From the IMG/VR virus record IMGVR_UViG_3300005337_000001, positions 1 to 64,000 of that record: a DNA stretch of 64,000 bases. The stretch is one strand, 5' to 3'. The notes under the pieces were generated by a model, which worked only from the letters and a program-made list of their open reading frames with translations, made no database searches and was not told the origin of the DNA. This document shows, piece by piece, positions 44,725 through 61,530 of the stretch. Position 1 is the stretch's first letter, and every line of letters starts with the position of its first letter. Position numbers and translations under genes: made by a program. The DNA comes from a virus.

Positions 44725-44943
44725 TTACGACACACGGTCAACGAACACCGTAGGCATCATGGCGGCGTATGTATTACCAACGCCGCGTAGTGTGGGATGC
44801 AAGATCTTCACTACAACCAAGTGCTCAATCGGCGCGTCCTGCTTAGTCATGGAGATGTGCTCGCCAACGCGAGGTAAGATCTCGGCGTCTTGTATCAAAT
44901 GAGACTGCTGCTTATGGTCAGTAGGCTGCAGCAAATAGTTCAT
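44725..44943 (-). CDS. small hypothetical protein
   Basis: 72 residues; ATG shares its A with the upstream TGA. Strand-rich (HLVVVKILHPTLRG), ending VFVDRVS. The layout (EILPRVGEHI ... VVVKILHP) resembles the other small beta proteins here, at 41062 and 30920. Unknown. Confidence 0.65.
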   Translation of the reverse strand: MNYLLQPTDHKQQSHLIQDAEILPRVGEHISMTKQDAPIEHLVVVKILHPTLRGVGNTYAAMMPTVFVDRVS

Positions 44944-47900: not shown

Positions 47901-48050
47901 GAGGATGTAGACGCCGGCGGCAGCCTCTTGGATGTCGGAGAAGGATACGGAAATCTTCCGGTCCCCGAGAATACCCGTAGGATGTCGAACCGTTGAACGC
48001 ACGATTTTCTCGACGGCTGCTTGTACTTCTTCGGCGGTGTAGTTGCTCAT
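44943..48050 (-). CDS. large virion structural protein (tail/baseplate-like)
   Basis: 1035 residues, the largest gene. Helical N-terminal third, with a poly-Ser/Gly linker near residues 152-165, a second Ser-rich linker near 300, then several beta-rich domains with repeated TITVGGTTVTIN- and DVTFPTTITAG-like strands, and a helical end with a disordered acidic/Pro tail. This modular beta architecture suits a tail, baseplate or fibre-connecting protein. No homologue can be named by eye. Confidence 0.7.
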   Translation of the reverse strand: MSNYTAEEVQAAVEKIVRSTVRHPTGILGDRKISVSFSDIQEAAAGVYILWFNAPFYTILLGARKLQDLALTQASTVTSLIDAVFATDRLVTPISDLSPLANARSALEELEAAVSSRTDGFSDITKVPAYRRYVQNLDGFLGTVGPNIKQAQSASSSSSSSGGSAIVDTPSGARAKIPALVRQMAEAHSELIRRAGLLSNAIADFGSLNLPRVAAQGVISRARDVLDQHFTELSALDENARLDNLRAVALDLITQQPLVAKYGAAQAPSEFITTSGQAQAFADAQHPATPAERASSSSGPYPILAANQFIRFAMDGGAPFDYPLPLSFIAELTAVLAEPFQIDPDRDALLIGFGSVDTGLPQFPVTLTNGLRTAAQVASEINAALGASALVCEEVFFPVRYNSPVVITSLGGNNARFTILGGSLTGLGIVVGDEVDVDEGANDGTTWVVTAVDPGGQFIDALGVAPVVPVPLPGAMISVGPAARALRLRDTDESGSLAQRRTVQLIRTGGEEDVAASVLGFFPGASARSRPVPATTVVDNINGSTSKLAAKLVFHDFEYVGVARSEPTDPTRVVFTKVTGTGTITVGGTTVTINIASEDQRVDIDINDPVVLRSSTFGLDAGKEGFIIAATDTTIDVTFPTTITAGDVTFEIGANISFGFGDILVVNDGSNAGRYVVGEDQGVKTTASFELVLERGLTSFKDGDLPIFFNASLGAEDVTFASRDTTLASEVIVDNAGASLGANYFLDPIDVGVPVRGFTNWLHFDTFPTGAVVGDSVQLYEAQYNEVSRTFTITGLEPALGVVALFELIESTFVMSFDFGVPNPFGRIRVVQVANYTQFKEELDAWLAQPEQQTSYFRDLARFLNPIVTNANPTVSMVNDANNHLKKLLAVLTTDGADLFGQLHVPTVVGQDTLEFALANYKAPAQEPVDTLLGTFRQKGADRAIDLLIEGQFSTFFNLDVDGVSYSGTLMSGLRNLAREDLPVRKFNRRSAGGEKLIGSSQDEKDFEFSSDDADSPGQPDIPTGPDVASPGENF

Positions 48051-48211
48051 TTGCTGTGATCTTTCAAGGTGATGAAGCTGTAGTTCTGCAGGTCCCGCTC
48101 GAAGTACTCCCTGAGCAGTGCTTTCAGCAAAATGTGACGTAGGGCACGTGCTAGCGGTGACATCGAGGTGCCGGCTACAAGCTGGCGTTCGGCGGGGGTG
48201 TACTCGCTCAT
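48047..48211 (-). CDS. small hypothetical protein
   Basis: 54 codons, ATG at 48211, TGA overlapping the ATG of the large virion gene (ATGA). Contains a helix LARALRHILLKALLREYFE, amphipathic. The coupling suggests it is made with the structural protein. Confidence 0.65.
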   Translation of the reverse strand: MSEYTPAERQLVAGTSMSPLARALRHILLKALLREYFERDLQNYSFITLKDHSK

Positions 48212-48220
48212 GTAGTTCCC

Positions 48221-48613
48221 TCAGAAAGGTAGAATGCGGATGCCTTTACCTTGCCACTTGCCGTACTTGGCCAGCACTTCTTCTTCGGTTTCCATCCCAT
48301 CTAAGTACCACTTGAGCGCCAGATGTTCGAAGTACCGCCAGAGTTCGGGCGGTGTGCCACGCTCTCCCCTGAATTGAATCTGCACACCACAGGGGAGGCC
48401 CTTGGCGAAGTTGCCGCTCACCAGCTCTTCTGGGATTGCAAAAACTATTCTGCCGTTACTGGGACGACGCCAAACCCTGCCTTGCATACCAGCTGGCAGA
48501 GGCAACGTTCCGTGGGTGTTGCGCAGGGTATAGATGCTGCCTTTTCGCTTCACGAAGTGGCTCGCTAGCGCCTCCTCCATGCCTTGCGCAATGTCGTCAG
48601 GTGCTGCGTTCAT
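48221..48613 (-). CDS. hypothetical protein with AxxMExAL motif
   Basis: 130 residues. Residues 8-16 read IAQGMEEAL, a copy of the recurrent motif at the N-terminus; the rest is a basic alpha/beta domain (GRVWRRPSNGRIVFAIP) ending WQGKGIRILPF. Unknown. Confidence 0.65.
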   Translation of the reverse strand: MNAAPDDIAQGMEEALASHFVKRKGSIYTLRNTHGTLPLPAGMQGRVWRRPSNGRIVFAIPEELVSGNFAKGLPCGVQIQFRGERGTPPELWRYFEHLALKWYLDGMETEEEVLAKYGKWQGKGIRILPF

Positions 48614-48846
48614 GTACTGGACACCTTCATGGCCTTCTTGAAAGCCTTGGACTTCAAGCAGCGCTTGCAGTTCACCTTGGATGAGGCCTTACGCACAGAG
48701 AGTACGGGACCGGCTTGGATGCCACAAGCTGTGCAGCCACCAGGGCCGAGGTGCGGGCGAAAGTGGGTGGCTTTGCCAGGCAGGTTGGGTATGGGTATGA
48801 GCCCAGGGACGAAGCCGGCGTACTCCTCGTTGAAGTGCTTGGTCAT
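48610..48846 (-). CDS. hypothetical zinc-binding protein
   Basis: 78 residues. CTACG near 38-42 and CKRC near 60-63; Lys-rich C-terminus (KSKAFKKAMKV). Four-base overlaps on both sides. Confidence 0.65.
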   Translation of the reverse strand: MTKHFNEEYAGFVPGLIPIPNLPGKATHFRPHLGPGGCTACGIQAGPVLSVRKASSKVNCKRCLKSKAFKKAMKVSST

Positions 48847-49238
48847 GTACCGGGCTCTTTCACCAAGGTCAGCTTGCGAGGCTCTTCAACCAACACATCC
48901 ATGGGATCAGCCGTGCGTGTGACCGTGCCAGCAAACATGGCCAATGCGAAGGCCTCTGGGCGCATGGTTACCGTGCCCGTGCCTTGGCGCAGCGTCTTGC
49001 CACACAAAGCGCAGGGATATTCGCCGGGCACTCCGACGGTTTTCTCTTCAGACTCCTCGTTGAAGTGACTACGGCAGACGAAAAGCCAGGTTCGGTTGGT
49101 GTAGGCAGCGGCGAGGCCCGGGCCTTTGGCAGTGGGGTCTGCCATCCTGCTCGAGCCCCTCATGAGCAGCTCGTAGGCTGCCAGCTCTTCGCCTGTGTCA
49201 GCTTCGATGGTGCCATCGGGTAGCTTGCGAATGGTCAC
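48843..49238 (-). CDS. hypothetical protein with CxxC
   Basis: 131 residues from a GTG at 49238 overlapping the upstream TGA (GTGA). CRSHF and CALCG in the middle suggest one zinc site (C-x-x-H ... C-x-x-C). Unknown. Confidence 0.6.
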   Translation of the reverse strand: MTIRKLPDGTIEADTGEELAAYELLMRGSSRMADPTAKGPGLAAAYTNRTWLFVCRSHFNEESEEKTVGVPGEYPCALCGKTLRQGTGTVTMRPEAFALAMFAGTVTRTADPMDVLVEEPRKLTLVKEPGT

Positions 49239-49639
49239 GTCGGTTCCCAGCCTTTCGTTCCTTCGGCTTTCATGTGATCGTAGACGCGGAGAAAAGCTAC
49301 ATCGAGGTCGAGCAGCGGCCCTTGCCAGTTCCACTCGGGGTCGTCAGCGGTCCACCACACCATCACGATGATTGGTATCTCCGGTGTGCGGTCTAGCACC
49401 ACGCGGTAGTCAAGCGCCCAGCCCGTTGCGAGCGACAGCTCGAGGTGCTTGTTGCGCGCTTCGATGAGCCAGCTCGCAGCTACCTGCGGGTCGTCGAACG
49501 CCAGGCAGGTGAGCTCGAAGCGTGCAGCTTTCCAGGCACGGACGTCTCCCGTCTCTTCGAGCGTGTAGATGGTAGCGCCGAGCTTCATGTCATAGACCGA
49601 CCAGAAGTTGGCTCGGCGCGGTTGGATGAGCGCGTTCAT
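49235..49639 (-). CDS. hypothetical protein
   Basis: 134 residues from the ATG at 49639 (ATGA overlap). Alternating strands and helices, Trp-rich (MVWWTADDPEWNWQG). Unknown. Confidence 0.65.
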   Translation of the reverse strand: MNALIQPRRANFWSVYDMKLGATIYTLEETGDVRAWKAARFELTCLAFDDPQVAASWLIEARNKHLELSLATGWALDYRVVLDRTPEIPIIVMVWWTADDPEWNWQGPLLDLDVAFLRVYDHMKAEGTKGWEPT

Positions 49640-49947
49640 AGACACATGGGTTCTTCCTCGTAGACGTACTCTGCCGGGCCACGACGCCGGCGACAGATAG
49701 GGCCATGGAGATTGCCGTAGCGCCGCTGCAAAAACAGGAATACAGCGTCGGGGAAAGCGTGGCCGCCACCATGCTCATGCTCGAGCTCGCAGCGTTCACC
49801 GCCGCTCTCGAAGTAGGTGCACTGTGGTAGCGACGGTACATGGAGCACAGCAAACACACGGCCCTGCTCACAAACAGGGACAGCAGTCGCTACGCTGTGG
49901 AGCCGCACCGGCGGCTCAATAGGCAAGAGGCGGTAGCCGTAGCTCAC
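49636..49947 (-). CDS. hypothetical protein
   Basis: 103 residues, GTG start overlapping the upstream TGA. Scattered Cys and His (CEQG, CTYFESGGERCELEHEH) may bind metal; basic RRRRG near the end. Unknown. Confidence 0.6.
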   Translation of the reverse strand: MSYGYRLLPIEPPVRLHSVATAVPVCEQGRVFAVLHVPSLPQCTYFESGGERCELEHEHGGGHAFPDAVFLFLQRRYGNLHGPICRRRRGPAEYVYEEEPMCL

Positions 49948-50186
49948 GTGCTCTCCTCAACCGGCAACTTGGCCAAGCAGGCTGGGCAGGTCACCTTCGC
50001 ATCGTCGAAGGTGTAGAGCGGGGTCTTGTCGGAAATGGGCGTGCCGTCCGACCAATCAGCGCGGTGCACGTCCTCAGGCAAGCCAGGGGGCTGGTTGTAA
50101 ACGTAGTACTCTTCCTCGGTGCAAAGCAGCGTCACGTAGGGCTGCGAGGCGTACTGACAGGCGTGAATGGGATCGGTAATGCTCAT
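49944..50186 (-). CDS. small zinc-binding protein
   Basis: 80 residues. HACQY near residue 8, a beta middle, and TCPACLAKLP near the C-terminus. Similar H/C ... C-P-x-C layout to the next gene and to the one at 51042. Confidence 0.65.
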   Translation of the reverse strand: MSITDPIHACQYASQPYVTLLCTEEEYYVYNQPPGLPEDVHRADWSDGTPISDKTPLYTFDDAKVTCPACLAKLPVEEST

Positions 50187-50422
50187 GCGAACCTCGGTGC
50201 TGAAAACTCGTTCGGTTGGAGACCGTCGCTAGCTGCTAGCGCATCTTCCATGCCCTGGGCCAGGAAAGCCTCGGACGCTCGGCATGCAGGGCAGTCAACA
50301 CGCTCGCGGTGGACAGAACGGTTGTGCATGTACGCGAAGAGCCCGCAACCAGTCTTGGTATCGTTGTAAGCCTTGTCGGTGGTCACGTCCAAGAAGTGGG
50401 TGTAGGTCAAGGTCAGGCTCAT
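50183..50422 (-). CDS. small zinc-finger protein with AxxMExAL motif
   Basis: 79 residues. An early Cys/His region, DCPACR near 43-48, then LAQGMEDAL near 55-63. The combination C-P-x-C followed by the motif is shared with 51042-51380, so the two look like divergent paralogues. Confidence 0.65.
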   Translation of the reverse strand: MSLTLTYTHFLDVTTDKAYNDTKTGCGLFAYMHNRSVHRERVDCPACRASEAFLAQGMEDALAASDGLQPNEFSAPRFA

Positions 50423-50610
50423 TTGACAGGCCCCGGAAAGTGCATGGCCAGCGCGCCCGGATCAACAAGGTCACCGTCGAGGCTGAACGTGCTCTTGTAC
50501 TTGGTGAAGCCACGCAGCGTGGACATTTCGATGCGCACCATGCCGGTGTGCTTGGCCAATAGCCGCAGGTCGCTGACTACCAGGGTCCAACCTTGCTCGG
50601 GCTGGCTCAT
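50419..50610 (-). CDS. small beta-rich hypothetical protein
   Basis: 63 residues, strand-rich (WTLVVSDLRLLAKHTG) and basic. Unknown; four-base overlaps. Confidence 0.6.
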   Translation of the reverse strand: MSQPEQGWTLVVSDLRLLAKHTGMVRIEMSTLRGFTKYKSTFSLDGDLVDPGALAMHFPGPVK

Positions 50611-50798
50611 GTACTTGCCTTCATCAGTGCAATTTCACGTGGTGTAAAGGGGCCATGCTCGCTGTGTTTAGCCACAACTTCAATAGCGCTTGCGAGAGTG
50701 GATTCGTCGCCGTGCTTGAATAAGGCTTTGGCTACACCCAAGGCATGCTTCAGCCTGGGTGGAAGCTCAGGTTTTGGTGCTGGGCGATGCGTGCTCAT
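50607..50798 (-). CDS. small helical hypothetical protein
   Basis: 63 residues: Pro-rich start, then two helices (LKHALGVAKALFKHG, LASAIEVVAKHSEHG). Unknown. Confidence 0.6.
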   Translation of the reverse strand: MSTHRPAPKPELPPRLKHALGVAKALFKHGDESTLASAIEVVAKHSEHGPFTPREIALMKAST

Positions 50799-51016
50799 CG
50801 CCAGCCCTTGGGCATCTTCGTCGGCAGTGTAGCGCCCAGCGGTAGTTTGAGCATGGACGCCTTGATCTGCACCTCCATGCCGTCGATGGCGCGCTTGCAG
50901 GCCTGACGAGCGAGCTGGAGCTGCATACGCATGTCGGCGAAGACCTCGGTCTTGGAGGCGTCATCGACATGTCTCTTGGCTAGGTCGAGCGCGGTTTGTA
51001 TTTCGTCGAATCTCAT
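50795..51016 (-). CDS. small helical hypothetical protein
   Basis: 73 residues from the ATG at 51016 (AAGGA upstream). Two long charged helices, ending LPTKMPKGWR. Unknown. Confidence 0.6.
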   Translation of the reverse strand: MRFDEIQTALDLAKRHVDDASKTEVFADMRMQLQLARQACKRAIDGMEVQIKASMLKLPLGATLPTKMPKGWR

Positions 51017-51041
51017 TTGATGTAGTCCTTCTTGAAGCTCA

Positions 51042-51380
51042 TTAACCTCTGAGGAGCTTCTGGATTTCGGCAGTGGCGTCGGTGACTCCATCGTCGAAGA
51101 CTTTGAACGAAGACTGCTTCATTGAGGCTAGAATGTCGGAGGGGTAGATAGTTTCGAAGAACGATGAGCCAGGAGCTTTAGGTAACCGGTCGCCGTTTCT
51201 ATTCGCTGGCGCCTGCAGCGCTTCCTCCATGCTTGCAGCCTGCGCGTCTTCGAACACAGGGGTGTCTTGGCAGTGCGGGCAGTCGGTGAGCTTGACGTCA
51301 CGGGTGAGCGATAGGTCGTAGCTGATGAAGACGTGACAGGCGGTGTACTTGTCGTCAGCTCGATAGAAGTGCACGGTCAT
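51042..51380 (-). CDS. zinc-finger protein with AxxMExAL motif
   Basis: 112 residues from the ATG at 51380. CHVFISYD ... DCPHC (about 15-40) followed by QAASMEEAL near 53: same order as in 50183-50422. C-terminal half polar with IYPSDIL. Unknown. Confidence 0.65.
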   Translation of the reverse strand: MTVHFYRADDKYTACHVFISYDLSLTRDVKLTDCPHCQDTPVFEDAQAASMEEALQAPANRNGDRLPKAPGSSFFETIYPSDILASMKQSSFKVFDDGVTDATAEIQKLLRG

Positions 51381-51384
51381 GTGC

Positions 51385-51600
51385 TCACCGATCCCAGAAG
51401 ACGAAGCCTTGACTGTGCCTACCCTGGTGACCTGGCTTGAGCTTGCACGAAAAATTGGACCAGCGGTGGCCGCAGAACTCGGAGGTAGGGTACGGGCGTG
51501 TATTGAGCTCAGCACGTAATGTATCCAAGAGCCGTTCAGCCCAACCTACTGCAGCCACTAGCTCTTCGGTGGTCATGTCCGCGGGACGCTTGGTGTTCAT
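51385..51600 (-). CDS. small helical protein with Cys/His tail
   Basis: 71 residues from the ATG at 51600 (ATGA overlap). Helix EELVAAVGWAERLLDTL, then FCGHRW ... CKLKPGHQGRHSQG, a Cys/His arrangement frequent in phage small proteins. Unknown. Confidence 0.6.
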   Translation of the reverse strand: MNTKRPADMTTEELVAAVGWAERLLDTLRAELNTRPYPTSEFCGHRWSNFSCKLKPGHQGRHSQGFVFWDR

Positions 51601-51974
51601 GTAACAGCTGCTCCAATGACATCGCGCGCAAGCATGTCGTTGAACATGCGGCGTACCGCAATGCACTGCCGATCGCCAGGGTTCAAGGCCTTCTTGCAGA
51701 TGTCGGGGCGCTTCTCATAGATGGAGCAGCTCACCTGCTTGCCGATGGAGCCTCGTAGGCTTACGCACCTGCAGTCCTCGGCGCCCTTGAGCGGACCCGT
51801 CTTGTTGAGAGTAGGCCTCGTGCGGATCTCGCTGTTGATGACGTTCAGCCGCACGTAGCGCCGGCCCAGTTTCTCTTCATCCTTGGGCGTCAGGTTCACG
51901 TAGGTGTCACTCCACGTAAGTGAGACACAACAGATGCCGCACTTGCGGCAGTCGGCTGATGTGAGCTTGGGCAT
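51597..51974 (-). CDS. YkgJ-family cysteine-cluster protein
   Basis: 125 residues from the ATG at 51974. CRKCGICC near 9-16, later CRC, CSIYEKRPDICKK and C near 103: the C-x2-C-G-x-C-C ... C-x-(I/V)-Y-E-x-R-P-x-x-C pattern of YkgJ (UPF0153/CxxCxxCC) proteins, which probably bind zinc or iron. Cellular role unknown. Confidence 0.8.
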   Translation of the reverse strand: MPKLTSADCRKCGICCVSLTWSDTYVNLTPKDEEKLGRRYVRLNVINSEIRTRPTLNKTGPLKGAEDCRCVSLRGSIGKQVSCSIYEKRPDICKKALNPGDRQCIAVRRMFNDMLARDVIGAAVT

Positions 51975-51976
51975 GC

Positions 51977-52324
51977 TCAAAGACCCAACTCGAACCTAGC
52001 CGCTTTGATTGCTGTGAGCGAGATGTGTGAAGGTATATGGTTTTGGAGAGCGTGGATGTCACGACAAAACTCCCGCCAGGTCTCGAGGAGAAGTCTTTCT
52101 GCAGCACGTTCCTCCAGGCTGAGCCAGACTGAGCCGTTGCGGCTGTCCGGATGTAGCGTCTCGATGTCGAAGCGCCCTTGAGAGTGTGAGAACCTTGAGT
52201 CAGGGTACTTGTACTCCGCCCACTTGCGCCCAATTTTGCTGATCTCGTACTCGGTTGGTTTGCCGCGGTCGAAGTCGTGCTCGACGAATACACGCTGGCC
52301 TACCTTCAATTTGTGCTTGTTCAT
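51977..52324 (-). CDS. conserved phage-type hypothetical protein
   Basis: 115 residues. VGQRVFVEHD, EYEISKIGRKWAEYK and FDIETL, then a long C-terminal helix with LLETWREF: this pattern is known to me from many phage small proteins. Probable small barrel plus helix; function unknown. Confidence 0.65.
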   Translation of the reverse strand: MNKHKLKVGQRVFVEHDFDRGKPTEYEISKIGRKWAEYKYPDSRFSHSQGRFDIETLHPDSRNGSVWLSLEERAAERLLLETWREFCRDIHALQNHIPSHISLTAIKAARFELGL

Positions 52325-52326
52325 CT

Positions 52327-52863
52327 CTACTCCAGGTGATGCGGGCCTTCAGCACGGTATCGTTCGAGCTCCTGCGGCGTAGCGCCAGTGAGGCGCGTCT
52401 TCTTGCCCACACCATGCTCAAAATTGGCTTTGTGATGTCGAAACGCTTCAGCCTCGTACTCGAGCGCCACCATCTGCGTGGAGCCCCAGCCAGCTACCTC
52501 GATGGTCCACACGTGCGGCACCCACTTCTCGATTTTCTCGAAGGCCTTCTCCATGAAGCCAAAGCTGGGCTCGCCTTCGGTCTCTTGCTTCTCGATGAAG
52601 CCATGCTTGACTAGGCTTTCGAAGTCAGGGTGGAAGAAGGGGTTGGTAACCCACCAAGCAATGGGATTGGGCACAGGCTTGGCGGTGATCGCTTCTTGCA
52701 TGAGCTCGCCCATTCGCTTGAGCGAGATGAACTTCCACTCGTCCCCGTCTTTGGAAAGCGTCCAGATGAGTAGCGCCCCAGCGCATTCTTCTTCGCTGTG
52801 TCCAAAGGTGGCGGTGAGCGGCGGCATGTCGAGAATCACAGCACTCGGTTTGTAGATGGGCAT
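52327..52863 (-). CDS. hypothetical protein
   Basis: 178 residues from the ATG at 52863. Alpha/beta protein; SFGFMEKAFEKIEKW near the middle is a weak relative of the AxxMExAL motif. Contains HSEEECAGALLIW near the N-terminus. Unknown. Confidence 0.65.
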   Translation of the reverse strand: MPIYKPSAVILDMPPLTATFGHSEEECAGALLIWTLSKDGDEWKFISLKRMGELMQEAITAKPVPNPIAWWVTNPFFHPDFESLVKHGFIEKQETEGEPSFGFMEKAFEKIEKWVPHVWTIEVAGWGSTQMVALEYEAEAFRHHKANFEHGVGKKTRLTGATPQELERYRAEGPHHLE

Positions 52864-52865
52864 GT

Positions 52866-53102
52866 TCAATCCCTCATTGGAGCCAGAATCCAACGCCACT
52901 CGTCGGGCCAGCTGTCGTCTTCGTAGATAGGACGTATACCCTCACCAGGAGGGTTGCCAAGAAAGGTGATGGCCCGGTTGTTAACCTGAGCTATGTGCGC
53001 GTTCCAGAAAGTGATGCCAACCGGTGTGAGGATCACGATGTCCTGCCGACCCCGCACTGCTAAACGCGGGTCATCGTCACTCCAGTTCGGCTCACCCCGC
53101 AT
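52866..53102 (-). CDS. small hypothetical protein
   Basis: 78 residues from the ATG at 53102 (overlaps the upstream stop by 11 bases; an ATG at 53135 is possible). Strand-rich with ILTPVGITFWNAHIAQV, ending in Trp-rich DEWRWIL. Unknown. Confidence 0.6.
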   Translation of the reverse strand: MRGEPNWSDDDPRLAVRGRQDIVILTPVGITFWNAHIAQVNNRAITFLGNPPGEGIRPIYEDDSWPDEWRWILAPMRD

Positions 53103-53301
53103 CTTCGGGCTCGTCTTTCGTCGTGAACTCGTCACGCGCGGCGTAGTCTCGGATTTGGAAGCTGCCGGTGATGGGCAGCGAGTCGAGCTTCACGTTGATG
53201 GAGCCATCAGTATTCTCGAAGGCCACACCGATGCGTGTCCAGTACTTTTTGCCGTTGCGCTCGGTGATGTTGTAGCAAATTTTGTGCTTGCCGTTGCTCA
53301 T
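53092..53301 (-). CDS. conserved small protein (WTRIGVAF motif)
   Basis: 69 residues. CYNITERNGKKYWTRIGVAF and GSINVKLDSLPITG, ending in an acidic tail. I recognise this as a widespread small protein of phages and plasmids; no established function. Confidence 0.7.
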   Translation of the reverse strand: MSNGKHKICYNITERNGKKYWTRIGVAFENTDGSINVKLDSLPITGSFQIRDYAARDEFTTKDEPEDAG

Positions 53302-53510
53302 GTGTACCTCTGTCCTTTCAAGCAGCCTTCAGTTCGTTTGTAGCCGTCCACCTTGCGTCTCTTGTCCCACGTAAGCAGCTCATGAAAGAGCTTGCAGCTC
53401 ATGTTGCTGTTGGCCGTGCCCTCCATCCAATCGCAGTCGTTCGAACAGTGCCCGTTGGTGGAGGTGGTCACGTCAACGCCCACCACGACCGGCAGTATCT
53501 TGCGGTTCAC
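53298..53510 (-). CDS. cysteine-containing small protein
   Basis: 70 residues, GTG start overlapping the upstream TGA. Cys at about 22, 26, 39 and 63 with HCSNDCDW could bind one metal. Unknown. Confidence 0.6.
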   Translation of the reverse strand: MNRKILPVVVGVDVTTSTNGHCSNDCDWMEGTANSNMSCKLFHELLTWDKRRKVDGYKRTEGCLKGQRYT

Positions 53511-53839
53511 TTATCCCTCACAGGGCGAAACAAGGGGCGCTGGCCGCGTGCGAGCATGCGCTTGCGCATCTCGAGAGAGATTTGGTAGGCCGTGACGCTC
53601 TCGCGTTCCTTGAGCATCTCGTCTCTGATCTCGTCCCACTCCTTGCACTCGTTCGCCCACTGCTGAAGCTGCTCTTCAGTGAGGTCGCAGGACTTGAGCT
53701 CAGGCTCGCCCTCCACCATCTTGCTCTGGTCGATGCCACAGGAGCGGCAGCGTCCATGGAGACGTAGGCCAAGCTGCCCCATCTCTTCCACCTGACCGTT
53801 ACAAGCCAAGCAGATCCACGCATCGGTTTCTTCGGCCAT
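53507..53839 (-). CDS. zinc-ribbon protein with helical C-terminus
   Basis: 110 residues from the ATG at 53839 with GGAAGG upstream. CLAC near 10-13 and CRSC near 31-34 form a zinc ribbon; the rest is a long charged helix (ECKEWDEIRDEML). Unknown. Confidence 0.65.
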   Translation of the reverse strand: MAEETDAWICLACNGQVEEMGQLGLRLHGRCRSCGIDQSKMVEGEPELKSCDLTEEQLQQWANECKEWDEIRDEMLKERESVTAYQISLEMRKRMLARGQRPLFRPVRDK

Positions 53840-53840
53840 C

Positions 53841-54095
53841 TCACAGTCCTTCCATACTTGCGGCATTGGTAGGCCAATGCGTTCCAAGAAGAGACAAGCA
53901 CTCACCTCTATGCAGATTCTCCAGACAGCAAGATTCGCTTGTGATAGGCGAGACGGAGGGGCAACCCACCTTTTTGGAGCTACCGTTGAGGTTCTCGAGA
54001 GCGCGCTCAAAGCGATCGAGCGGCGCTTCGTACTTCATGTACTGCTGATGCCTGTGCCGCTTCTTACGCAGCGCACGCTTCTGCAGCTTGTTCAT
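53841..54095 (-). CDS. hypothetical basic protein
   Basis: 84 residues. Very basic N-terminus (LRKKRHRHQQ), then LDRFERALENL, a weak relative of the recurrent motif, cysteines at about 45, 56-57 and 66, and a final NAASMEGL. Unknown. Confidence 0.6.
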   Translation of the reverse strand: MNKLQKRALRKKRHRHQQYMKYEAPLDRFERALENLNGSSKKVGCPSVSPITSESCCLENLHRGECLSLLGTHWPTNAASMEGL

Positions 54096-54289
54096 CGCCG
54101 CCTGAGCCTTTCAAGCTCCGCTTTGTACTTCTCAGCCAGGGTGTAGGTGCCTGCTTTGTCGTACCTACGCATGCGTCTGCCGTCGATCTCGGCCTGACTG
54201 GGCCGGCTCAGCGCATCCTCCATGCTCTGTGCAAGCGCTTCGTCGAGCAGCATCTCACGCACATGCTCAGGTAGTTTTGCTTGTTTCAT
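54092..54289 (-). CDS. small helical protein with AxxMExAL motif
   Basis: 65 residues: LLDEALAQSMEDAL at about 14-27, then a basic helix to the end. Among the smallest carriers of the motif, so the motif is most of its conserved content. Confidence 0.65.
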   Translation of the reverse strand: MKQAKLPEHVREMLLDEALAQSMEDALSRPSQAEIDGRRMRRYDKAGTYTLAEKYKAELERLRRR

Positions 54290-54654
54290 CAGATGAAGTT
54301 GGCAGCATCATCGAGCGCCACCCAGTATGCTGCGCGCCCCCTGATCCTAGATGGCCGTACTCGATACCCCGCTGTCAGCGGAAGCATCAACTGCGTCCAC
54401 GGTTTGGTGGAGCTCATCGCTCGAAAGCGCTCGAGGTCGTAATCGTCGATGAACTTGCGCTGCTTGTCTTCAGGTATGTCTCGCCACTGCCCCAACACCT
54501 CCTCGTAGTACGACTTACCAGCGGCGCGCAGCGGGTAGCCCATGTACTCGCTAGACCAAGACGTACCCCAATCGATGAAGCGGTACGGAGCCAAGAGGGC
54601 AAGCTCCATGTCGTCAGCCATGAGCTCATTGAAGGGCAGCACAAGTTGTCGCAT
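54289..54654 (-). CDS. hypothetical protein with AxxMExAL motif
   Basis: 121 residues. ELMADDMELAL at about 10-20, then a mixed domain with Tyr/Trp/Arg (YEEVLGQWRDIPEDKQ). Stop overlaps the next ATG (TGATG). Unknown. Confidence 0.65.
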   Translation of the reverse strand: MRQLVLPFNELMADDMELALLAPYRFIDWGTSWSSEYMGYPLRAAGKSYYEEVLGQWRDIPEDKQRKFIDDYDLERFRAMSSTKPWTQLMLPLTAGYRVRPSRIRGRAAYWVALDDAANFI

Positions 54655-54945
54655 TTACGTGGATGGGCCGACGTAGTTGAAGCGATACACAGGCGTCTCG
54701 ATGTGCGTGTTCTCTTCTAAAGTAGAGCGTAGGTAATCGTGGCGGATGAAGTCGCTCCACGAGTCCTTGCCTTCGGTGGCCCATTCACGCAGGCGCGTGC
54801 GCCCCGTCTCCCCGCACACGTACACCACAAAAAGCTCATCGGTGTCATGGTGCGATGTCAGGAACAGCGCGACGTACTTACCAGGACGCTTGTGGTGCGT
54901 GTAGATGCCGGGCTTGAAGTTCTTCGGGTCTTGGTATGGTTGCAT
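54655..54945 (-). CDS. DUF1653-like protein
   Basis: 96 residues. FKPGIYTHHKRPGKYVAL, then LFVVYVCGETG fits DUF1653 (P-G-x-Y-x-H-x-K ... (E/D)-x-x-V-V-Y). Small beta barrel likely; function unknown. Confidence 0.65.
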   Translation of the reverse strand: MQPYQDPKNFKPGIYTHHKRPGKYVALFLTSHHDTDELFVVYVCGETGRTRLREWATEGKDSWSDFIRHDYLRSTLEENTHIETPVYRFNYVGPST

Positions 54946-54951
54946 GGATCC

Positions 54952-55299
54952 TCAGTACGGTTTCAGGGGTTTGTCGTTGGGCTCGCGCACAGCACGTGCC
55001 TCTGCTTCGTCTTCTAGCCCATGGAAGAACCACTCGGTAGCTTCCGGGTAGAGGTGGGTCTCAAATTTATCACTGAAGTAGCGCAGCTCGAGCTCGGCCT
55101 TTGCTTGCCCTTCATGTCTGATGCGCACGTCACACTCCTCGCCAACACGCGGGCCTTGCCGGTGTGCGTTCTGCACGACGTACTTCATCCACGGCGTGTA
55201 GCCGTCGTGGAGCGCGCGCTCCATACGCTCGGCCATGATGTCTTCGACGTCGGCGACGATCTCTTCCAGCCCTTCCGGGCTTCTCACTTTCGCGTTCAA
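54952..55299 (-). CDS. paralogue A of a tandem pair, with AxxMExAL motif
   Basis: 115 residues from a TTG at 55299 (TTGA overlap, GAGG site). DIMAERMERALHDGYTPW, then a Cys-containing beta domain and a C-terminal EWFFHGLEDEAEAR ... LKPY. The same order of motif, beta domain and WFF-x-G-(L/I)-E tail occurs in the next gene, indicating duplication. Confidence 0.6.
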   Translation of the reverse strand: MNAKVRSPEGLEEIVADVEDIMAERMERALHDGYTPWMKYVVQNAHRQGPRVGEECDVRIRHEGQAKAELELRYFSDKFETHLYPEATEWFFHGLEDEAEARAVREPNDKPLKPY

Positions 55300-55694
55300 T
55301 AGGGCCTCATCTTCACCTTGATAGCAGTAGGGCGCACGGTGTAGCCCTCGTATAGCTTGCGCACCTTCGCCTCGTTTTCGATGCCTTCGAAGAACCACAT
55401 ATGGCGCTTCGGTCGATGCAACCGTGACCACTCCAGCTGCGGGAAGTCGGTAGCCCCTATCCCATCAACCCACGGCTCTGGATGTGTAGTTGGTGCTTGG
55501 GTCAGCGCGTAGCGCAGCAGAATACCAGCACGACCTGAACTCTGGGTGTAGAAGCGTACTACGCAGAGCTGGTCCTTCTTGCCGTACTCGTTGTGGCTGC
55601 TGCGCGTGATGTAGTAGTACCAACCGTTGGTGAGCGCAGCTTCCATACGCGCGGCAGGATCTACAAGTTGTTCTTCAGCGCCGCCGCGGTGCAC
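55296..55694 (-). CDS. paralogue B of a tandem pair, with AxxMExAL motif
   Basis: 132 residues from a GTG at 55694 (a later ATG at 55646 would drop half of the motif). DPAARMEAALTNGWYYYI, a beta domain, then MWFFEGIENEAKVRK ... MRPY, parallel to the neighbour at 54952. Start uncertain. Confidence 0.6.
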   Translation of the reverse strand: MHRGGAEEQLVDPAARMEAALTNGWYYYITRSSHNEYGKKDQLCVVRFYTQSSGRAGILLRYALTQAPTTHPEPWVDGIGATDFPQLEWSRLHRPKRHMWFFEGIENEAKVRKLYEGYTVRPTAIKVKMRPY

Positions 55695-55947
55695 TTTTGT
55701 ATGAAGCCCCAAACTTTCTCACTTTCTCCTCCAAGTCCTCCAGCAGGTCGTGCAGCTCGGAGCTGCTCCTGCGCGAGTCGACTAAGAGGGATGGTGCCGT
55801 ACCAGCGGGCCCGCCGAAGTTTGAGGGCTTCCCCCGCTCCGGCGGTGGTCCGGCAAGGGCTCGCTCCATACCTGCAGCAAGCTTGCCATTCTTCAAGTAC
55901 CAGCCTTGGTATTTCCTGGCATAGAGCTTTTTCTTTCGACGACTCAT
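55675..55947 (-). CDS. small basic protein with AxxMExAL motif
   Basis: 90 residues from the ATG at 55947. Lys/Arg/Tyr-rich start (SRRKKKLYARKYQGW), GKLAAGMERAL near 20-30, Pro/Gly linker, then a coiled-coil-like helix (LHDLLEDLEEKVRKF). Its ATG shares a base with a TGA in a third frame, taken as the end of the previous gene. Confidence 0.6.
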   Translation of the reverse strand: MSRRKKKLYARKYQGWYLKNGKLAAGMERALAGPPPERGKPSNFGGPAGTAPSLLVDSRRSSSELHDLLEDLEEKVRKFGASYKSAPRRR

Positions 55948-56263
55948 CAGGCCTCTTCGAATACGTATCGGCCAGCGCGTAGGTGCGAGCCAATATGCGG
56001 CACTCGAGCGCCGCATAGTCGATCGTGCCGGTAACCAGCATCTCGTCGTGGATGAACGTCCCCGCAATCATCTTTTGGAGAGGGGTCTTTCGTATTCCCT
56101 GACCGCCGTAGACGGTTTCGAAGTCGAAGGGGATGAGCCCCGAAGGCTTAGGCTCACGAAATGCTTTCTCCATCCCGGCGGCGAGCTTGTCCTCGTAGGC
56201 CTTGAGCCTCAAGTACCGCCTGAGCTTGCGCTCTTTCTTGGAGCGTCGCCTAAGCCTTCGCAT
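55947..56263 (-). CDS. hypothetical protein with AxxMExAL motif, possibly frameshifted
   Basis: From the ATG at 56263: basic start (MRRLRRRSKKE), EDKLAAGMEKAF near 25-36, then a domain with HDEMLVTGTIDYAALEC. This frame has no stop until 55661, which would overlap the next gene by almost 290 bases. The -1 frame instead gives GRYVFEEA and a TGA at 55947-55949 overlapping the next ATG. I therefore suspect a missing base or a -1 shift near 55965, giving about 106 residues. Ends not certain. Confidence 0.5.
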
Positions 56264-56567
56264 ATTGCGGGCACCCTTCGTAGTGATGCTCGCCCTTGCT
56301 GGCCTGCAGCGACAAACGTTGCTCTTCGGGGAAGCGGTGCGGATCACATCTGCAGGTAGCTGCCAGCACGTCCATAGTCTTCTTGATCACTGCAACTTGT
56401 ACTAGCTCTGTCACAGCACGACTCTTGGCTTGCTCGAAGGCTGCAACAGCATCTTCGTAGGAACCTCCAGTGGCGCGCACCCAGACGAGACGCAGCTGAT
56501 GCTCAGACTCCAAAATCCTTTCGAAACCGCTCGCTAGCTCTTCGTCGCTCTTCGTTTCGTTCGGCAT
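56250..56567 (-). CDS. hypothetical protein, weak motif relative
   Basis: 105 residues. SDEELASGFERIL at 7-19 mirrors SDEELAASMEKAL of the preceding gene, suggesting a duplicated N-terminal module. C-terminal CRCD and HHYEGCP may bind metal. Overlaps the previous gene by 65 bases. Confidence 0.6.
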   Translation of the reverse strand: MPNETKSDEELASGFERILESEHQLRLVWVRATGGSYEDAVAAFEQAKSRAVTELVQVAVIKKTMDVLAATCRCDPHRFPEEQRLSLQASKGEHHYEGCPQYAKA

Positions 56568-56799
56568 CGGTCATCGCCTCCTCTCGCTTGCGACGTTCTG
56601 TGATGAACTCAACGGTGCCCTTCCACGCCTCCTCGTAGGTGTAACCCTTGACCACCTCCATGTACAGAAGCGTGTGCCTGTGGAAGAGCCGCCCGTCAGC
56701 TGAATCGACGAGCGCCTTCTCCATGCTCGCAGCTAGCTCTTCATCACTCAGCTCGTCTGAGGATTCCTTTTCGAGGTCTTGCGACTGGGGTTGTGTCAT
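56503..56799 (-). CDS. acidic/helical protein with AxxMExAL motif
   Basis: 98 residues from the ATG at 56799. Acidic Ser/Glu N-terminus, SDEELAASMEKAL near 23-35, then a helical domain with YTYEEAWKGTVEF and an Arg/Glu-rich end. Overlaps neighbours on both sides. Confidence 0.65.
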   Translation of the reverse strand: MTQPQSQDLEKESSDELSDEELAASMEKALVDSADGRLFHRHTLLYMEVVKGYTYEEAWKGTVEFITERRKREEAMTDAERNEERRRASERFRKDFGV

Positions 56800-57106
56800 C
56801 TTCCACCTTGCGCTGACCAAGGAAGGCCTTGGCCTGGAGCACGGTCTCCTGCGTGCCGTTCTTGATCTTGGCACCAAGAATACTCGTTTCCTCGGGCTGC
56901 AGCTCGATGATGTGCAGAAGCTCCTTGATGAGGGAGGGCGCTTCATCTAGGCGCCAGGTCTCCTCCCGCAGCGCTTTGACTGCGCGCACCAGCGCACGAC
57001 TGCCCTTGGTGTGGACAACGCTCGGGTGCGACTCGAGCTCGTCGACGCACTCGAAGGCCGCACGGAGCACGCGCTCCTTCAGCAGGTTCACAGAAGCAAT
57101 GCTCAT
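56744..57106 (-). CDS. hypothetical helical protein
   Basis: 120 residues, helical (NLLKERVLRAAFECVDEL) with a basic tail RPRKGILRRAE. Overlaps the next gene start by 56 bases. Unknown. Confidence 0.6.
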   Translation of the reverse strand: MSIASVNLLKERVLRAAFECVDELESHPSVVHTKGSRALVRAVKALREETWRLDEAPSLIKELLHIIELQPEETSILGAKIKNGTQETVLQAKAFLGQRKVEDDTTPVARPRKGILRRAE

Positions 57107-57846
57107 CGGCGTATCTCCAAAGTTCGAATGACAGCTGGGCTGAGGTAGGGGTTTGCTTTGCAGGCGTTGACGATGAACTCTTCCATCGCCTTGTCGAAGT
57201 TGCCACCGTCGTCCCGACCACCAACGCCAATGCTAGTGGCCGCGCAGGGAATCAGATTCCTCTTCGTGTTCAACACAAGAGAACGCCCACTCGGCAGCCC
57301 CCAGCTAGCGCTGTGACCAGGGAAGTACATCAACTGCTGGATGTACATGCTGCCCACATCACGATCGACGATCTCGGCATTACGTTTGGCTTCGGCCACA
57401 TGCATAGCTCGAGCTGTCGACGTTCGGTGCAGGTCAGCTTCCCAAAGCCTGGCGATCTTGCGCGGCGAGAGCGGTGATACTTCCAGGAGCTGGGCGTCCC
57501 ATTCCTCATCGTGCTCGACGGTCTCCCACCCACTCTTATGTACATCAGGGGCACCCACCTCAATGCAGAAAAGCTGGCCAGGGGCTACGCCGTTCTCGAG
57601 CGCCCAATTGCGCCATGGCTGATGCCAGCTGCGGCCGTATTCCTCCACCGTACTGCCGCTCCAGTTGATGTTCAATGCCGTGTCTAAGTCGAAGTCGCTG
57701 AGCCACCAAGGCCACCATGCCGGCGGCTCGCTGTCTTCCACCTCGTTCCACATCGGCACCTGACCAGCCGCTTCTGGGGTCAGGTCGTAATCGAAGTTGC
57801 CCCAGTGCAGGCGGTACCAGAATTTGCACAGCTCTGGCCCGTGCAC
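57103..57846 (-). CDS. hypothetical protein
   Basis: 247 residues from a GTG at 57846; upstream frame overlaps the preceding gene's acidic tail and is likely a shadow. Trp-rich first half (AWWPWWLSDFDLD), then alpha/beta; GGNFDKAMEEFIVNA near the C-terminus. The segment SWGLPSGRSLVLNTKRNLIP followed by GVGGRDDGGNFDKA may be a small catalytic or macro-like region, but I cannot assign it. Confidence 0.6.
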   Translation of the reverse strand: MHGPELCKFWYRLHWGNFDYDLTPEAAGQVPMWNEVEDSEPPAWWPWWLSDFDLDTALNINWSGSTVEEYGRSWHQPWRNWALENGVAPGQLFCIEVGAPDVHKSGWETVEHDEEWDAQLLEVSPLSPRKIARLWEADLHRTSTARAMHVAEAKRNAEIVDRDVGSMYIQQLMYFPGHSASWGLPSGRSLVLNTKRNLIPCAATSIGVGGRDDGGNFDKAMEEFIVNACKANPYLSPAVIRTLEIRR

Positions 57847-57862
57847 GTTTGCAGCTGAGATG

Positions 57863-58717
57863 TCAGTCGTCGGATACTTCGTCAGCTTCTTCAGTGTCCT
57901 CAGCGTCTTCTTCGTCTTCGTCGTCAGATACGTCATCGCCAGTGCTCCTAGCGTCGGGTGATGAGTCGGCGAGCTCGTCTTTGTCCATAGGTTCCACGTT
58001 TTGGACGGTGACTTCCCACCCATCCTCTTCGAGCTGTTTTACAGCCTCGCTCACCTGATCGTCCACCGGCGTCGCCTCTTGACCATCGTCGATGACGCTC
58101 CAGTTGGGATCGCCCGACATCTTGCGCTCGACCAGCAGCTCCACGTTGTACACGGGCTCGTTGAACATCCTCGCCTGGTCGACAACCTCTTCCGAGCTCA
58201 GATTGGTCAAAAACTCGCTGATGCCAGGCTCTGTGCCGTTGAAGTCCTTACCCGTACATTCTTTGAAGAGCTGCTTGCGTTCTTCGGGCAGAAGCACGAT
58301 GACACGCATCTCGTCCATCACCCACCAGCGCTTGGTGTGATGCTTGAACCACCAATCCAGTAGGGACTGTAGCGACGGCGCATCGGCTACGGTGTAGCTG
58401 TCGGGCGCGTCCTGGTCCTCGTAGGCGTCGATGAGAAGCTGCTGCGCACTTGGCGCTTCCAACTGCACCGGCTTGCAAGGGATGAGCACGTAGGGGATGT
58501 TGATCTCGTCGATCTCAGGCTCGAAGTTCTTGCGCTCGAATGCGCCAGCCTCTTCGAGAGTCTGAAAGTAGCCCTCGTCTTCGTGAGCTTCCCACTGGAA
58601 GAAGCCCTCGGGGTGTTCGTCTTTGAACTGCTCGAGTGAGATGCGCTCCTCACCCGCATGCTCCTTGGCTACGTGCAGAGGCAATCGTCGAATAGCTTCA
58701 AGCAAAGGTGTCGTCAT
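57863..58717 (-). CDS. hypothetical protein with long acidic tail
   Basis: 284 residues from the ATG at 58717 (ATGA overlap). Mixed alpha/beta body with Trp-rich LLDWWFKHHTKRWWV, then from about residue 240 an Asp/Glu/Ser tail (DDVSDDEDEEDAED). Acidic tails of this type can mimic DNA or mediate binding. Unknown. Confidence 0.65.
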   Translation of the reverse strand: MTTPLLEAIRRLPLHVAKEHAGEERISLEQFKDEHPEGFFQWEAHEDEGYFQTLEEAGAFERKNFEPEIDEINIPYVLIPCKPVQLEAPSAQQLLIDAYEDQDAPDSYTVADAPSLQSLLDWWFKHHTKRWWVMDEMRVIVLLPEERKQLFKECTGKDFNGTEPGISEFLTNLSSEEVVDQARMFNEPVYNVELLVERKMSGDPNWSVIDDGQEATPVDDQVSEAVKQLEEDGWEVTVQNVEPMDKDELADSSPDARSTGDDVSDDEDEEDAEDTEEADEVSDD

Positions 58718-59553
58718 TTGTCTTTGTCCTCGTTGAACTTCCTGGGATTGAATGCGATACCAGGCACTACATTGGGGTTGTTCTTGTCGTCTTCGTACAC
58801 GTAGCGCGTGGCCGCGCCCTTCTGCTCGATACGTTCGAAATTGCCGCACCGCCCGCATTCGAACAGTGTGGTCTTCGGCTCGCCCGAATCGTCTTCGAAC
58901 AGCTCCTCAAGTGAAACCTCTCGCACCACGGCAAGCTCTTCCGTCTTGGTCGCCGCCCAGCTATCGCAGCGTGGGCACTCGACACCAGGTACCTGCCAGT
59001 TCTGCGCCAGGAAGGCCTCGAGCTGAGTTAGGTCACTGGTGTCGTAGCGCCTCACGATCTCGGGCTTGGGCATGCGCCGCACCTGCTCAGCCGTGGTCTC
59101 GAAGCGCAGGTTCGCACGCACGTGCGCGTAGCGCTCTTCGTGCGCATTGAGCAGGAAGTCCACGACCTCGCCTTGCTCCAAGACCCAGGCCATGGCCGTC
59201 TCGATGCCACGCTCGACGTGCTCGTTGGCCATGCTCTTCAAGTTGATGAGCGCAGCTTCATCGTCGGTGAGCTCACTACCTATCGCCTGGGTCAACAGCC
59301 AGATGGGAGCCTCGCTGAAGCCCATGAACTTGGGGCTGCTGAGAAACTGCATGGCCTTGGAGTAAGCCACGCGCAGCAGGGTCGTATACGAGTCGACACC
59401 GTCATCGCCTCCCTTGGGTCGCGTCCCGATGCAGATAGGGAACCGACTGCAGCCGTAGAACTCGCCCTTCTTACCCACGCGCTCCATCATGGGCACGCCG
59501 CATTCCGGGCATCGCACATGCTGAAGCAGCGTTCTCTCACGCCATTTTTTCAA
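58714..59553 (-). CDS. topoisomerase-type zinc-finger protein
   Basis: 279 residues from a TTG at 59553 with GGAGG six bases upstream. CPECGVPMMERVGKKGEFYGC followed by SRFPIC near residues 15-40 is the topoisomerase I C-terminal zinc-ribbon pattern. A helical middle follows, then CPRCDSW near 190 and ECGRCGNF near 235 as a second site. Not a topoisomerase itself; probably binds ssDNA or RNA polymerase as such ribbons do. Confidence 0.7.
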   Translation of the reverse strand: MKKWRERTLLQHVRCPECGVPMMERVGKKGEFYGCSRFPICIGTRPKGGDDGVDSYTTLLRVAYSKAMQFLSSPKFMGFSEAPIWLLTQAIGSELTDDEAALINLKSMANEHVERGIETAMAWVLEQGEVVDFLLNAHEERYAHVRANLRFETTAEQVRRMPKPEIVRRYDTSDLTQLEAFLAQNWQVPGVECPRCDSWAATKTEELAVVREVSLEELFEDDSGEPKTTLFECGRCGNFERIEQKGAATRYVYEDDKNNPNVVPGIAFNPRKFNEDKDK

Positions 59554-59561
59554 CTTGCCTC

Positions 59562-59972
59562 CTAGCAGTTTGCGTCGACGAGCACACCGCACTCATCACA
59601 GCAGCGATCGAGCGCTTCCTTGGCATCACTCCAAAGCGTTGTCATAAAGCCGCTCAGGTACGGCAGGTCAGGGTAGTTACTAGCGTTGGCTTGTACAACC
59701 AACGGTGCGTTGGTCTGCGCTGACAGCGCGATCTCCATACTACGTGCAGTGCAATGCTGGCGATGGCAACGCCAACACACGACGCAGCCGTTGCTGAACG
59801 TGTAGCCGATGAGCAGGTGCACAGCCTCTGACAGCACTCCGCCCCAACGAATCTCACCGCAGTAGGTACATTCCCAACCGCTGTGGAACCGAGGGGGCGG
59901 GTTCACTTCGACGCACTGCGCGTGCGTCTTGCAATTCTGACAGGGGCTGACGGGCTTGACCCGTCGAGTCAT
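59562..59972 (-). CDS. cysteine-rich protein with AxxMExAL motif
   Basis: 136 residues. CQNC, CTYCG, CVVCWRCHRQHC and a final CCDEC give enough ligands for three zinc sites; TARSMEIAL follows directly. As in 50183 and 51042, the motif sits right after a zinc knuckle. Confidence 0.65.
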   Translation of the reverse strand: MTRRVKPVSPCQNCKTHAQCVEVNPPPRFHSGWECTYCGEIRWGGVLSEAVHLLIGYTFSNGCVVCWRCHRQHCTARSMEIALSAQTNAPLVVQANASNYPDLPYLSGFMTTLWSDAKEALDRCCDECGVLVDANC

Positions 59973-60187
59973 GGACTGCAGCAGGGCGCTGGCATGTGCT
60001 CTTGCTCGAGCTCGATGGCGCGCTCTACGAGCTGAGTCGCCAAGCCTTCGGGCTGGTGAAACGCGTCGAGGGCATCGAGCAGCTGCACGTGCGGAAGAAG
60101 CTCTTGGTAGAGCTCCACGGCTTTGTCGTGTTCGCCACGAGCTTTCGCTTCTGTTGCGTCGTCCTGAAGCTTGATAGCTGTGGCCAT
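59969..60187 (-). CDS. small helical-hairpin protein
   Basis: 72 residues from the ATG at 60187 (TGATG overlap). EAKARGEHDKAVELYQELLPHV is a TPR-like helix pair; ends CCSP. A start at 60280 would overlap the neighbour by 94 bases. Unknown. Confidence 0.55.
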   Translation of the reverse strand: MATAIKLQDDATEAKARGEHDKAVELYQELLPHVQLLDALDAFHQPEGLATQLVERAIELEQEHMPAPCCSP

Positions 60188-61038: not shown

Positions 61039-61530
61039 ATGATCCAACTACGAGGAATGGACGACAACAAGGAAGTGGTCGAGGTGGCTGACGACACCGT
61101 GTGCCACCTCATCGACGGCTTGCACTACACGGACACCAAAGAAGTGCGCCGCATTGGAGCGAAGACGACGCTTCAAGAGCTGCGCGCGTTCGAGATTGTG
61201 GAAGTCGACACGGGCTTGGACGACGACGAGCAGCCCCGCATCATGGCCATCATGCCAAGAAGCAGGAGCGGGGTAGCAGCACTGGTCGCCTCACTGGCGC
61301 TGATGCTGCTCTCTGGCTGCGGTAGTGGAGCGACGTACCACTACAGCTACACTTGCTTCGGTAACGGATGTGCGACGCCGGTGCAAATGTTCGGAGCCAT
61401 GTACCCGCACGTGCTGCCTCAACAGGCGCGCGTCGTGTACGTGAACCGACCGGTTGAGCTGCGTGTGCACAATGATGGGGCTTCAGAGATTCAAAGAAGG
61501 GCGGCGATGCCGCGAAGGAGAGAGCGATGA
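61039..61530 (+). CDS. protein with N-terminal domain and internal lipobox
   Basis: 163 residues. Residues 1-65 form a small polar domain (VADDTVCHLIDGLHYTD). At 77-94 a hydrophobic stretch ends in the lipobox LSGC (Cys94), with ATGs at 61243 and 61252 that would make a classical lipoprotein starting MPRSRSGVAAL. So it is either a long precursor with a cytosolic head or two products from two starts. The mature lipoprotein part is short, ending in a basic tail. Confidence 0.6.
   Translation: MIQLRGMDDNKEVVEVADDTVCHLIDGLHYTDTKEVRRIGAKTTLQELRAFEIVEVDTGLDDDEQPRIMAIMPRSRSGVAALVASLALMLLSGCGSGATYHYSYTCFGNGCATPVQMFGAMYPHVLPQQARVVYVNRPVELRVHNDGASEIQRRAAMPRRRER

Follow-up and report, generated by a model that had tools for sequence, protein, structure and literature searches.

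The first 64,000 bases (hereafter the window) of the 195,580-base virus record IMGVR_UViG_3300005337_000001, labelled G000 here, encode an island of small proteins that differ in fold and share a short motif, A-x-x-M-E-x-A-L. Judging from the sequences, this motif is probably a docking helix by which its carriers attach to one shared partner. That it might be a shared docking or targeting signal was put forward in a preliminary description of this DNA, and the idea is well supported by the conservation of the motif in orthologues, its presence in different folds, selection at the level of the protein, a predicted helix, and a lineage-wise drift that runs across carriers. The motif has the general marks of a short linear motif, i.e. 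few fixed residues that recur above chance in non-homologous proteins and that are aligned in orthologues. We found no description of it in the literature, of which our coverage was partial, and this is weak evidence of novelty.

The analysis covered six genomes, namely G000 and its relatives G001, G006, G007, G008, and G009 (coordinates on contig L041 refer to G001, those on L043 to G006). In all of them the reference point is a conserved protein of 1035 amino acids (1035-aa protein), which is 64% identical between G000 and G001 (111 kb, with 72% identity in a HerA-like ATPase) and about 45-53% identical in the other four, whose genomes measure 186-190 kb. Genes were predicted with one simple caller of our own that missed some small genes, so the motif counts are conservative. 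In the window, the two features that frame the analysis are:

48051-60000, minus strand: hypervariable island of small overlapping genes, with 11 of the 12 strict motif copies
44943-48050, minus strand: conserved 1035-aa protein, function unassigned, at the downstream edge of the island; 45-64% identical in the five relatives

The window has 12 copies of the pattern A-x-x-M-E-x-A-[LF], all of them in open frames of the minus strand, and 11 of the 12 lie between 48.5 and 59.8 kb, in the one small-gene island. All twelve strict instances of the preliminary description are thus present, the coordinates given there being the low ends of open reading frames (ORFs) and not motif positions. Its claim that the motif is far more frequent than chance also holds: the 12 copies compare with a mean of 0.07 and a maximum of 1 in dinucleotide shuffles, within-protein shuffles predict 0.11, and the reversed pattern has 0 matches. 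Extending the scan to the whole proteome, as had been proposed, added one strict match in the remaining 131,580 bases of the record (AGQMESAL, G000:105361), which is missing from the orthologues and which we take as a chance occurrence. When we enumerated 3.86 million gapped patterns of five residues in the predicted proteome of G000, A..ME.AL came first by log-probability, and the top patterns of the same enumeration in G001 were AQ.ME..L, A..ME.AL, and ED..A..ME. The copies and their counterparts in relatives are:

48566-48589, minus strand: AQGMEEAL, in ORF 48221-48613, beta family, residues 9-16 of 130
50237-50260, minus strand: AQGMEDAL, in ORF 50183-50422, zinc-ribbon family, past the second Cys pair
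51216-51239, minus strand: AASMEEAL, in ORF 51042-51380, zinc-ribbon family, in a helix of the structural model
53997-54017, minus strand: DRFERAL, a partial copy, in ORF 53841-54095; DRLEQAL in the G001 homologue
54209-54232, minus strand: AQSMEDAL, in ORF 54092-54289; AQSMEESL in the orthologue L041:9700
54595-54618, minus strand: ADDMELAL, in ORF 54289-54654; ADRMEKVL in the orthologue L041:9941
55210-55233, minus strand: AERMERAL, in ORF 54952-55299, beta family; AERMELAL (G001) and AVHMEVKF (G008) in orthologues
55632-55655, minus strand: AARMEAAL, in ORF 55296-55712, beta family; degenerate EAHTESLF in G001
55855-55878, minus strand: AAGMERAL, in ORF 55675-about 55947, KKK..WY family; AQAMEDAL (G001), AKIMERKI (G008), AQKMERAM (G007)
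56159-56182, minus strand: AAGMEKAF, in the ORF ending at 55661, basic N-terminus and DNA-polymerase-A mosaic; AHAMEAAL (G001), ASSMEQQL (G006)
56511-56534, minus strand: ASGFERIL, a variant, in ORF 56250-56567; ARDMEEAL (G001), AEEFEKKL (G008), AVSVERTM (G009)
56710-56733, minus strand: AASMEKAL, in ORF 56503-about 56799, which resembles 56250
59724-59747, minus strand: ARSMEIAL, in ORF 59562-59972, second Cys-rich family; 65% identical to L041:14758 (APAMESAL)
5712-5735, minus strand: AAKMEQAL, in the C-terminal tail of the cysteine-dioxygenase-like ORF 5628-6383; membership doubtful

Two weaker instances had also been proposed. The one in 56250 stands, with homologues that carry ARDMEEAL, AEEFEKKL, and AVSVERTM at the same place, and the one in 53841 is only partial. 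The copy in 5628 has no strict counterpart in the G001 orthologue, which is 52% identical, and may be due to chance or specific to the lineage.

The motif is conserved in homologues at aligned positions. Neither of the two outcomes by which the preliminary description would have been refuted, a chance-level frequency or a lack of such conservation, was observed. The motif also recurs in the corresponding island of the other phages. In the window this island is bordered upstream by the conserved genes 58714, 59969, and 60568 (named, like the carriers, by their low ends), and its last gene overlaps that of the 1035-aa protein by 4 bases. The syntenic island of G001 holds all 13 strict copies of that genome. 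In G006 to G009 the island has the same location, with orthologues of 58714, 59969, or 60568 on its upstream side and the 1035-aa gene on its downstream side, and the motif has drifted to A-x-x-[MFLIV]-E-x-x-[LFIMV], while G001, the closest relative, retains A..ME.AL. The drifted form has 14 copies in 9.5 kb in G008 (expected 1.2) and 18 copies in 10.2 kb in G007 (expected 1.8). When these four residue classes are arranged in every possible way within ten positions, the drifted form comes first in both genomes and shares the top rank, or almost does, in G000 and G001. A contig with a 31% identical 1035-aa protein (L140) has no island and no excess of the motif, and more distant relatives of the HerA-like protein have no strict motif array. 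Since relatives with the island carry the motif, and L140 lacks both, the motif travels with the island.

The drift follows the phage lineage. Homologous carriers, e.g. the sets of 54952, 55675, and 56250, keep the motif aligned while its residues change with the phage, and each lineage would have a specificity of its own (A..ME.AL in G000, A..[MF]E.[KR][FLI] in G008, and A..phi-E..[LFI] in G007, where phi is a hydrophobic residue). The pairings of 55675 and 56250 with proteins of G007 to G009 were made by reading the flanks (SKRKKK..QPWW; Y-M-D-A-T-x-S-Y-x-E-A), and their BLAST scores are not significant. The clearest change is in the Ala at +6, present in 25 of 30 copies in G000 and G001 vs 3 of 32 in G006 to G009 (the latter list was transcribed by hand and contains one error at its first position, which leaves +6 unaffected). 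Such a concerted drift is what one expects if the carriers of one phage share one partner that varies between lineages.

The anatomy of the motif was derived from the 30 copies of G000 and G001. Its core is nearly fixed (A0 in 30, M+3 in 29, E+4 in 30, A+6 in 25, and L+7 in 29), with Q or A at +1 in 19 and a Pro or Gly near +10 in 14; before it, an acidic residue stands at -4 in 17 copies and at -3 in 23, and -1 is mostly hydrophobic. As far as sequence tells, such a composition is that of a capped helix that stands by itself and has one sticky face. The codons for the motif A, E, and L match the usage of the genome with third positions free, and because the motif codons vary so freely, selection acts on the protein. 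We considered an excess of GCG at +6 as a constraint on the DNA, and the Ala-before-Leu context, in which this excess is general in these genomes, accounts for most of it. There is practically no probability left for the motif being a product of chance or composition, or an in-frame element of the DNA such as an internal start or a recombination site. The motif Met is always ATG in the window, as a DNA-level element would have it and as it necessarily must be, but relatives replace it by L, F, I, or V, which together with the varying third positions rules out a DNA element or an internal start codon. Shuffles, the reversed pattern, and the alternative arrangements all go against chance, and the conservation of the motif in orthologues refutes chance and composition.

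All-against-all BLAST and alignments sort the carriers into about nine families, which show good alignment with one another over no more than 11-18 residues, those at the motif. The differing folds noted in the preliminary description are real, but its "about twelve otherwise unrelated" proteins are not all mutually unrelated, given the paralogues among them. The beta family comprises 48221, 54952, and 55296, of which the last two are paralogues and the first has the same layout; the zinc-ribbon family comprises 50183 and 51042 and seven more proteins in G001; the remaining groups are 54092, 54289, 55675, the polymerase mosaic ending at 55661, 56250 with probably 56503, 59562, and the doubtful 5628. 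When the nine zinc-ribbon proteins are aligned, no columns are invariant other than those of three Cys and of the motif residues A, M, E, and L. In G001, six zinc-ribbon carriers form a tandem run with very different flanks (L041:5425-7284, minus strand), a local expansion of the family. In the AlphaFold2 model of a zinc-ribbon carrier, the motif lies in a helix (residues 41-56) immediately past the ribbon, and block means of the predicted local distance difference test (pLDDT) exceed 90 up to residue 50 and drop to 76 over residues 51-60. Foldseek returned no match for this model at E<=0.001, Pfam and PHROGs searches of the carriers gave nothing significant, and the best PDB sequence for a profile of 29 motif copies (caspase-4, E 0.03) is at chance level. 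Most window carriers have the start of the motif between residues 9 and 76, one has it at residue 217 of 251, and the relative positions are 0.06-0.86. Many carriers are basic and many are acidic (isoelectric point 4.4-5.5), and in G007 to G009 many open with a basic tract directly followed by the motif, e.g. MATRKERRERRQASKI[AASMEKRF].

One type of carrier combines the motif with fragments of DNA polymerase A. In the window (55661-56263, minus strand), a basic N-terminus and the motif are followed by the short signatures DFET, IHDEML, and DYAALECRILA. The G001 counterpart (L041:11861-12454) has SSQPNLQYIP, TDYAELERRVL, and a motif-B-like stretch, the G006 counterpart (L043:1282-1863) a motif-B-like stretch and then ADWSALETRVL, and in G007 the pieces are split over separate small carriers (IDYASVEERCLA, RIHDEFILEI) at 181203-181457 and about 181694-181948. 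The fragments thus include polymerase motifs A, B, and C, SSxPNLQ, and the exonuclease DxET, in a choice and order that vary between phages. Each genome with scrambled fragments also has a complete polymerase elsewhere, and the motif-A signature occurs exactly twice in each of G000, G001, G006, and G007, in the true polymerase and in one island carrier; the islands of G008 and G009 have no motif-A signature. Single fragments are weak (in one genome, the G001 protein matches the polymerase family at E 0.0015), and what argues for the mosaics is that the fragments recur in carriers of the same kind. The mosaic ORF also spans carrier ORF 55675 completely, in a different frame (55661-56067, minus strand), leaving about 270 bases doubly open.

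We propose that the docking helix, consisting of an acidic cap and then of (hydrophobic)-A-x-x-M-E-x-A-L, often ended by Gly or Pro, would be a portable element that small island-encoded proteins, in a changing assortment, carry and by which they are recruited to a shared partner. The rest of each carrier would be an interchangeable effector part, be it a zinc ribbon, a beta domain, or a basic or DNA-polymerase-like fragment. There would be a single partner per phage, presumably phage-encoded because the carriers of one lineage, orthologues included, drift together. The two likeliest candidates for this partner are a virion structure under assembly, which would gather the proteins for delivery, and a phage hub inside the cell, for instance the replication machinery. 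A fuller scheme, to which we give somewhat less than even chances, is that of a plug and a socket: the phage would encode the socket, the fast-changing small proteins would carry the helical plug, the two would co-evolve by lineage, and the mosaics of polymerase-I fragments may be decoys or modulators. Several observations weigh against a docking helix. The motif is in a helix in the model of a beta-family carrier as well, but at low confidence (pLDDT 60); several island proteins do not have the motif; one orthologue (L041:10686) has lost it; and copies are few in G006 and G009 (3 and 2 strict-core matches). Duplication within lineages could also contribute to the drift, from which it is not fully separable.

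The two forms of docking differ in where the carriers would go. If the helix binds the prohead core or the inner capsid, the small proteins would be packaged and injected, like the internal proteins of T-even phages. This form, which we regard as possible but somewhat unlikely, has a close parallel in these internal proteins, which are highly diverse and have in common only a capsid-targeting sequence (PMC3012670), and it fits the translational coupling of the island to the large conserved 1035-aa gene, the many basic carriers, and the near-N-terminal position of the motif after a basic tract in many carriers of G007 and G008. Yet the motif also occurs inside carriers and toward their C-termini, which sets it apart from the N-terminal propeptide of T4 that gp21 cuts off (PMC7411985), many carriers are acidic, and their zinc-ribbon and polymerase-like content is not what packaging would suggest. 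Nor is there a recognised prohead protease: Peptidase_S77 and S78 gave no match at E<=1 in G000, G006, G007, G008, or G009, although a very divergent protease could escape such a search. To the other form of docking, in which the helix would bring carriers to a phage complex for replication, transcription, or host takeover, we assign the same rather low probability when it is taken by itself. Zinc ribbons and basic tracts suggest work on nucleic acids, polymerase signatures are found in carriers of G000, G001, G006, and G007, and concerted drift is compatible with a phage-encoded partner. On the other hand, the motif is not directly linked to any replication protein, and the polymerase fragments are scrambled and much too short for enzymes.

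Explanations that dispense with docking on a separate receptor fare worse. The carriers might pair with one another through the helix, in which A0, M3, and L7 have heptad spacing; this is improbable. The residues A, M, and L are spaced by 3-4 in a short helix with polar faces, as pairing would require, but the helix is barely longer than one heptad, which would normally be too short for stable pairing, and the near-invariant Glu and the Ala positions seem better suited to a preformed surface. The motif might also be cleaved around M-E, or be a degron or a handle for a protease adaptor, which we consider very improbable. Prohead-protease sites of phages have a fixed residue two before the Glu, as in the L/I-x-E of T4, and free residues after it. 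Large phages do cut after Glu in short motifs, e.g. AXE in SPN3US (PMC7411985). A maturation site, one of the roles first suggested for the motif, is nevertheless disfavoured: the position two before Glu varies (S, G, R, A, D, K), fixed residues flank M-E on both sides, those at +2 and +3 past the Glu being nearly fixed in G000 and G001, and the place of the motif in the protein ranges from 9/130 to 217/251. Against a degron as well as cleavage are the replacement of the Met in relatives and the search for protease domains, where ClpP, like S77 and S78, was not found.

Single-helix recognition motifs such as the ubiquitin-interacting motifs UIM and MIU combine an acidic cap with a short amphipathic helix whose fixed Ala packs on a flat patch. 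The cap and the fixed-Ala helix resemble the present motif, but the likeness ends there, since the invariant residues and the spacing differ and this phage is not known to have a ubiquitin-like partner. The capsid-targeting sequence of T4 is an N-terminal propeptide on the internal proteins and Alt that the prohead protease gp21 removes (PMC3012670, PMC7411985); both it and our motif are one short sequence on highly diverse small accessory proteins of phages, but ours can be anywhere in the protein and comes with no recognised prohead protease. Cargo targeting peptides of encapsulins are also short, specific to their system, and directed to one shell protein (PMC7925596), an analogy that would hold if the motif docks. 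They are C-terminal, whereas here a predicted helix, A-x-x-phi-E-x-x-phi, is mostly N-terminal or internal. In import into the phage nucleus, a phage-encoded partner, PicA, selects phage proteins in a species-specific manner, as our putative phage partner might, but the study reports no motif conserved among these proteins and suggests that a surface is recognised (PMC11087766). Because of this, and of the clear linear motif here, phage-nucleus import is not a close match.

Small, fast-changing genes without assigned function make up the majority in phages, and the motif would mark a set of them as parts of one system. One pull-down with a motif peptide could expose the partner and the role of around a dozen uncharacterised proteins per phage. 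The lineage drift over many carriers together would be a natural case of co-evolution between a motif and its receptor in phages, and if the carriers are packaged, the motif would be an encapsidation tag placed internally.

The record is that of a tailed phage, with a terminase large subunit at about 132.6-134.4 kb (G000:132640-134448; phrog_675, E 7.5e-60), a tail-sheath-like protein at 112.9-116.0 kb, a DNA polymerase A, and two tRNAs within the window. Its lineage is known here from metagenomes only, because the nearest annotated phages are just about 28% identical in the terminase and none of 50,697 phage records has a relative of the 1035-aa protein; a scan of bacterial and archaeal genomes gave no relative. 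Relatives in IMG/VR were reached with the HerA-like ATPase and the 1035-aa protein as queries, single carriers or single neighbours having retrieved none. The PHROGs match of the former protein (2344-4329, minus strand) is a terminase large subunit; the protein itself resembles HerA-type ATPases instead, MW202482 has a relative with the annotation 'hera helicase', and the true terminase is the one named above.

Some neighbouring genes are of interest in themselves. The islands of three relatives encode a DnaQ/RNase-T-like exonuclease of apparent full length, with DTETTG (G007:178742-179464, G008:3984-4724, G009:152266-152982), and those of G006, G007, and G008 a protein that looks Nudix-like by eye. 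ORF 5628-6383 (minus strand) is a cysteine-dioxygenase-like protein in a phage (phrog_4786, E 1.8e-29). At 61527-62279 (plus strand), collagen-like Gly-x-y repeats are joined to a lipoprotein-type signal peptide, with a counterpart in G001. Beyond the window, G000:75855-76874 (L002:11855-12874, minus strand) encodes a protein with an InPase domain (PF18823, E 4.6e-39) and, in the same stretch, partial matches to DarB-like antirestriction and virion protein families.

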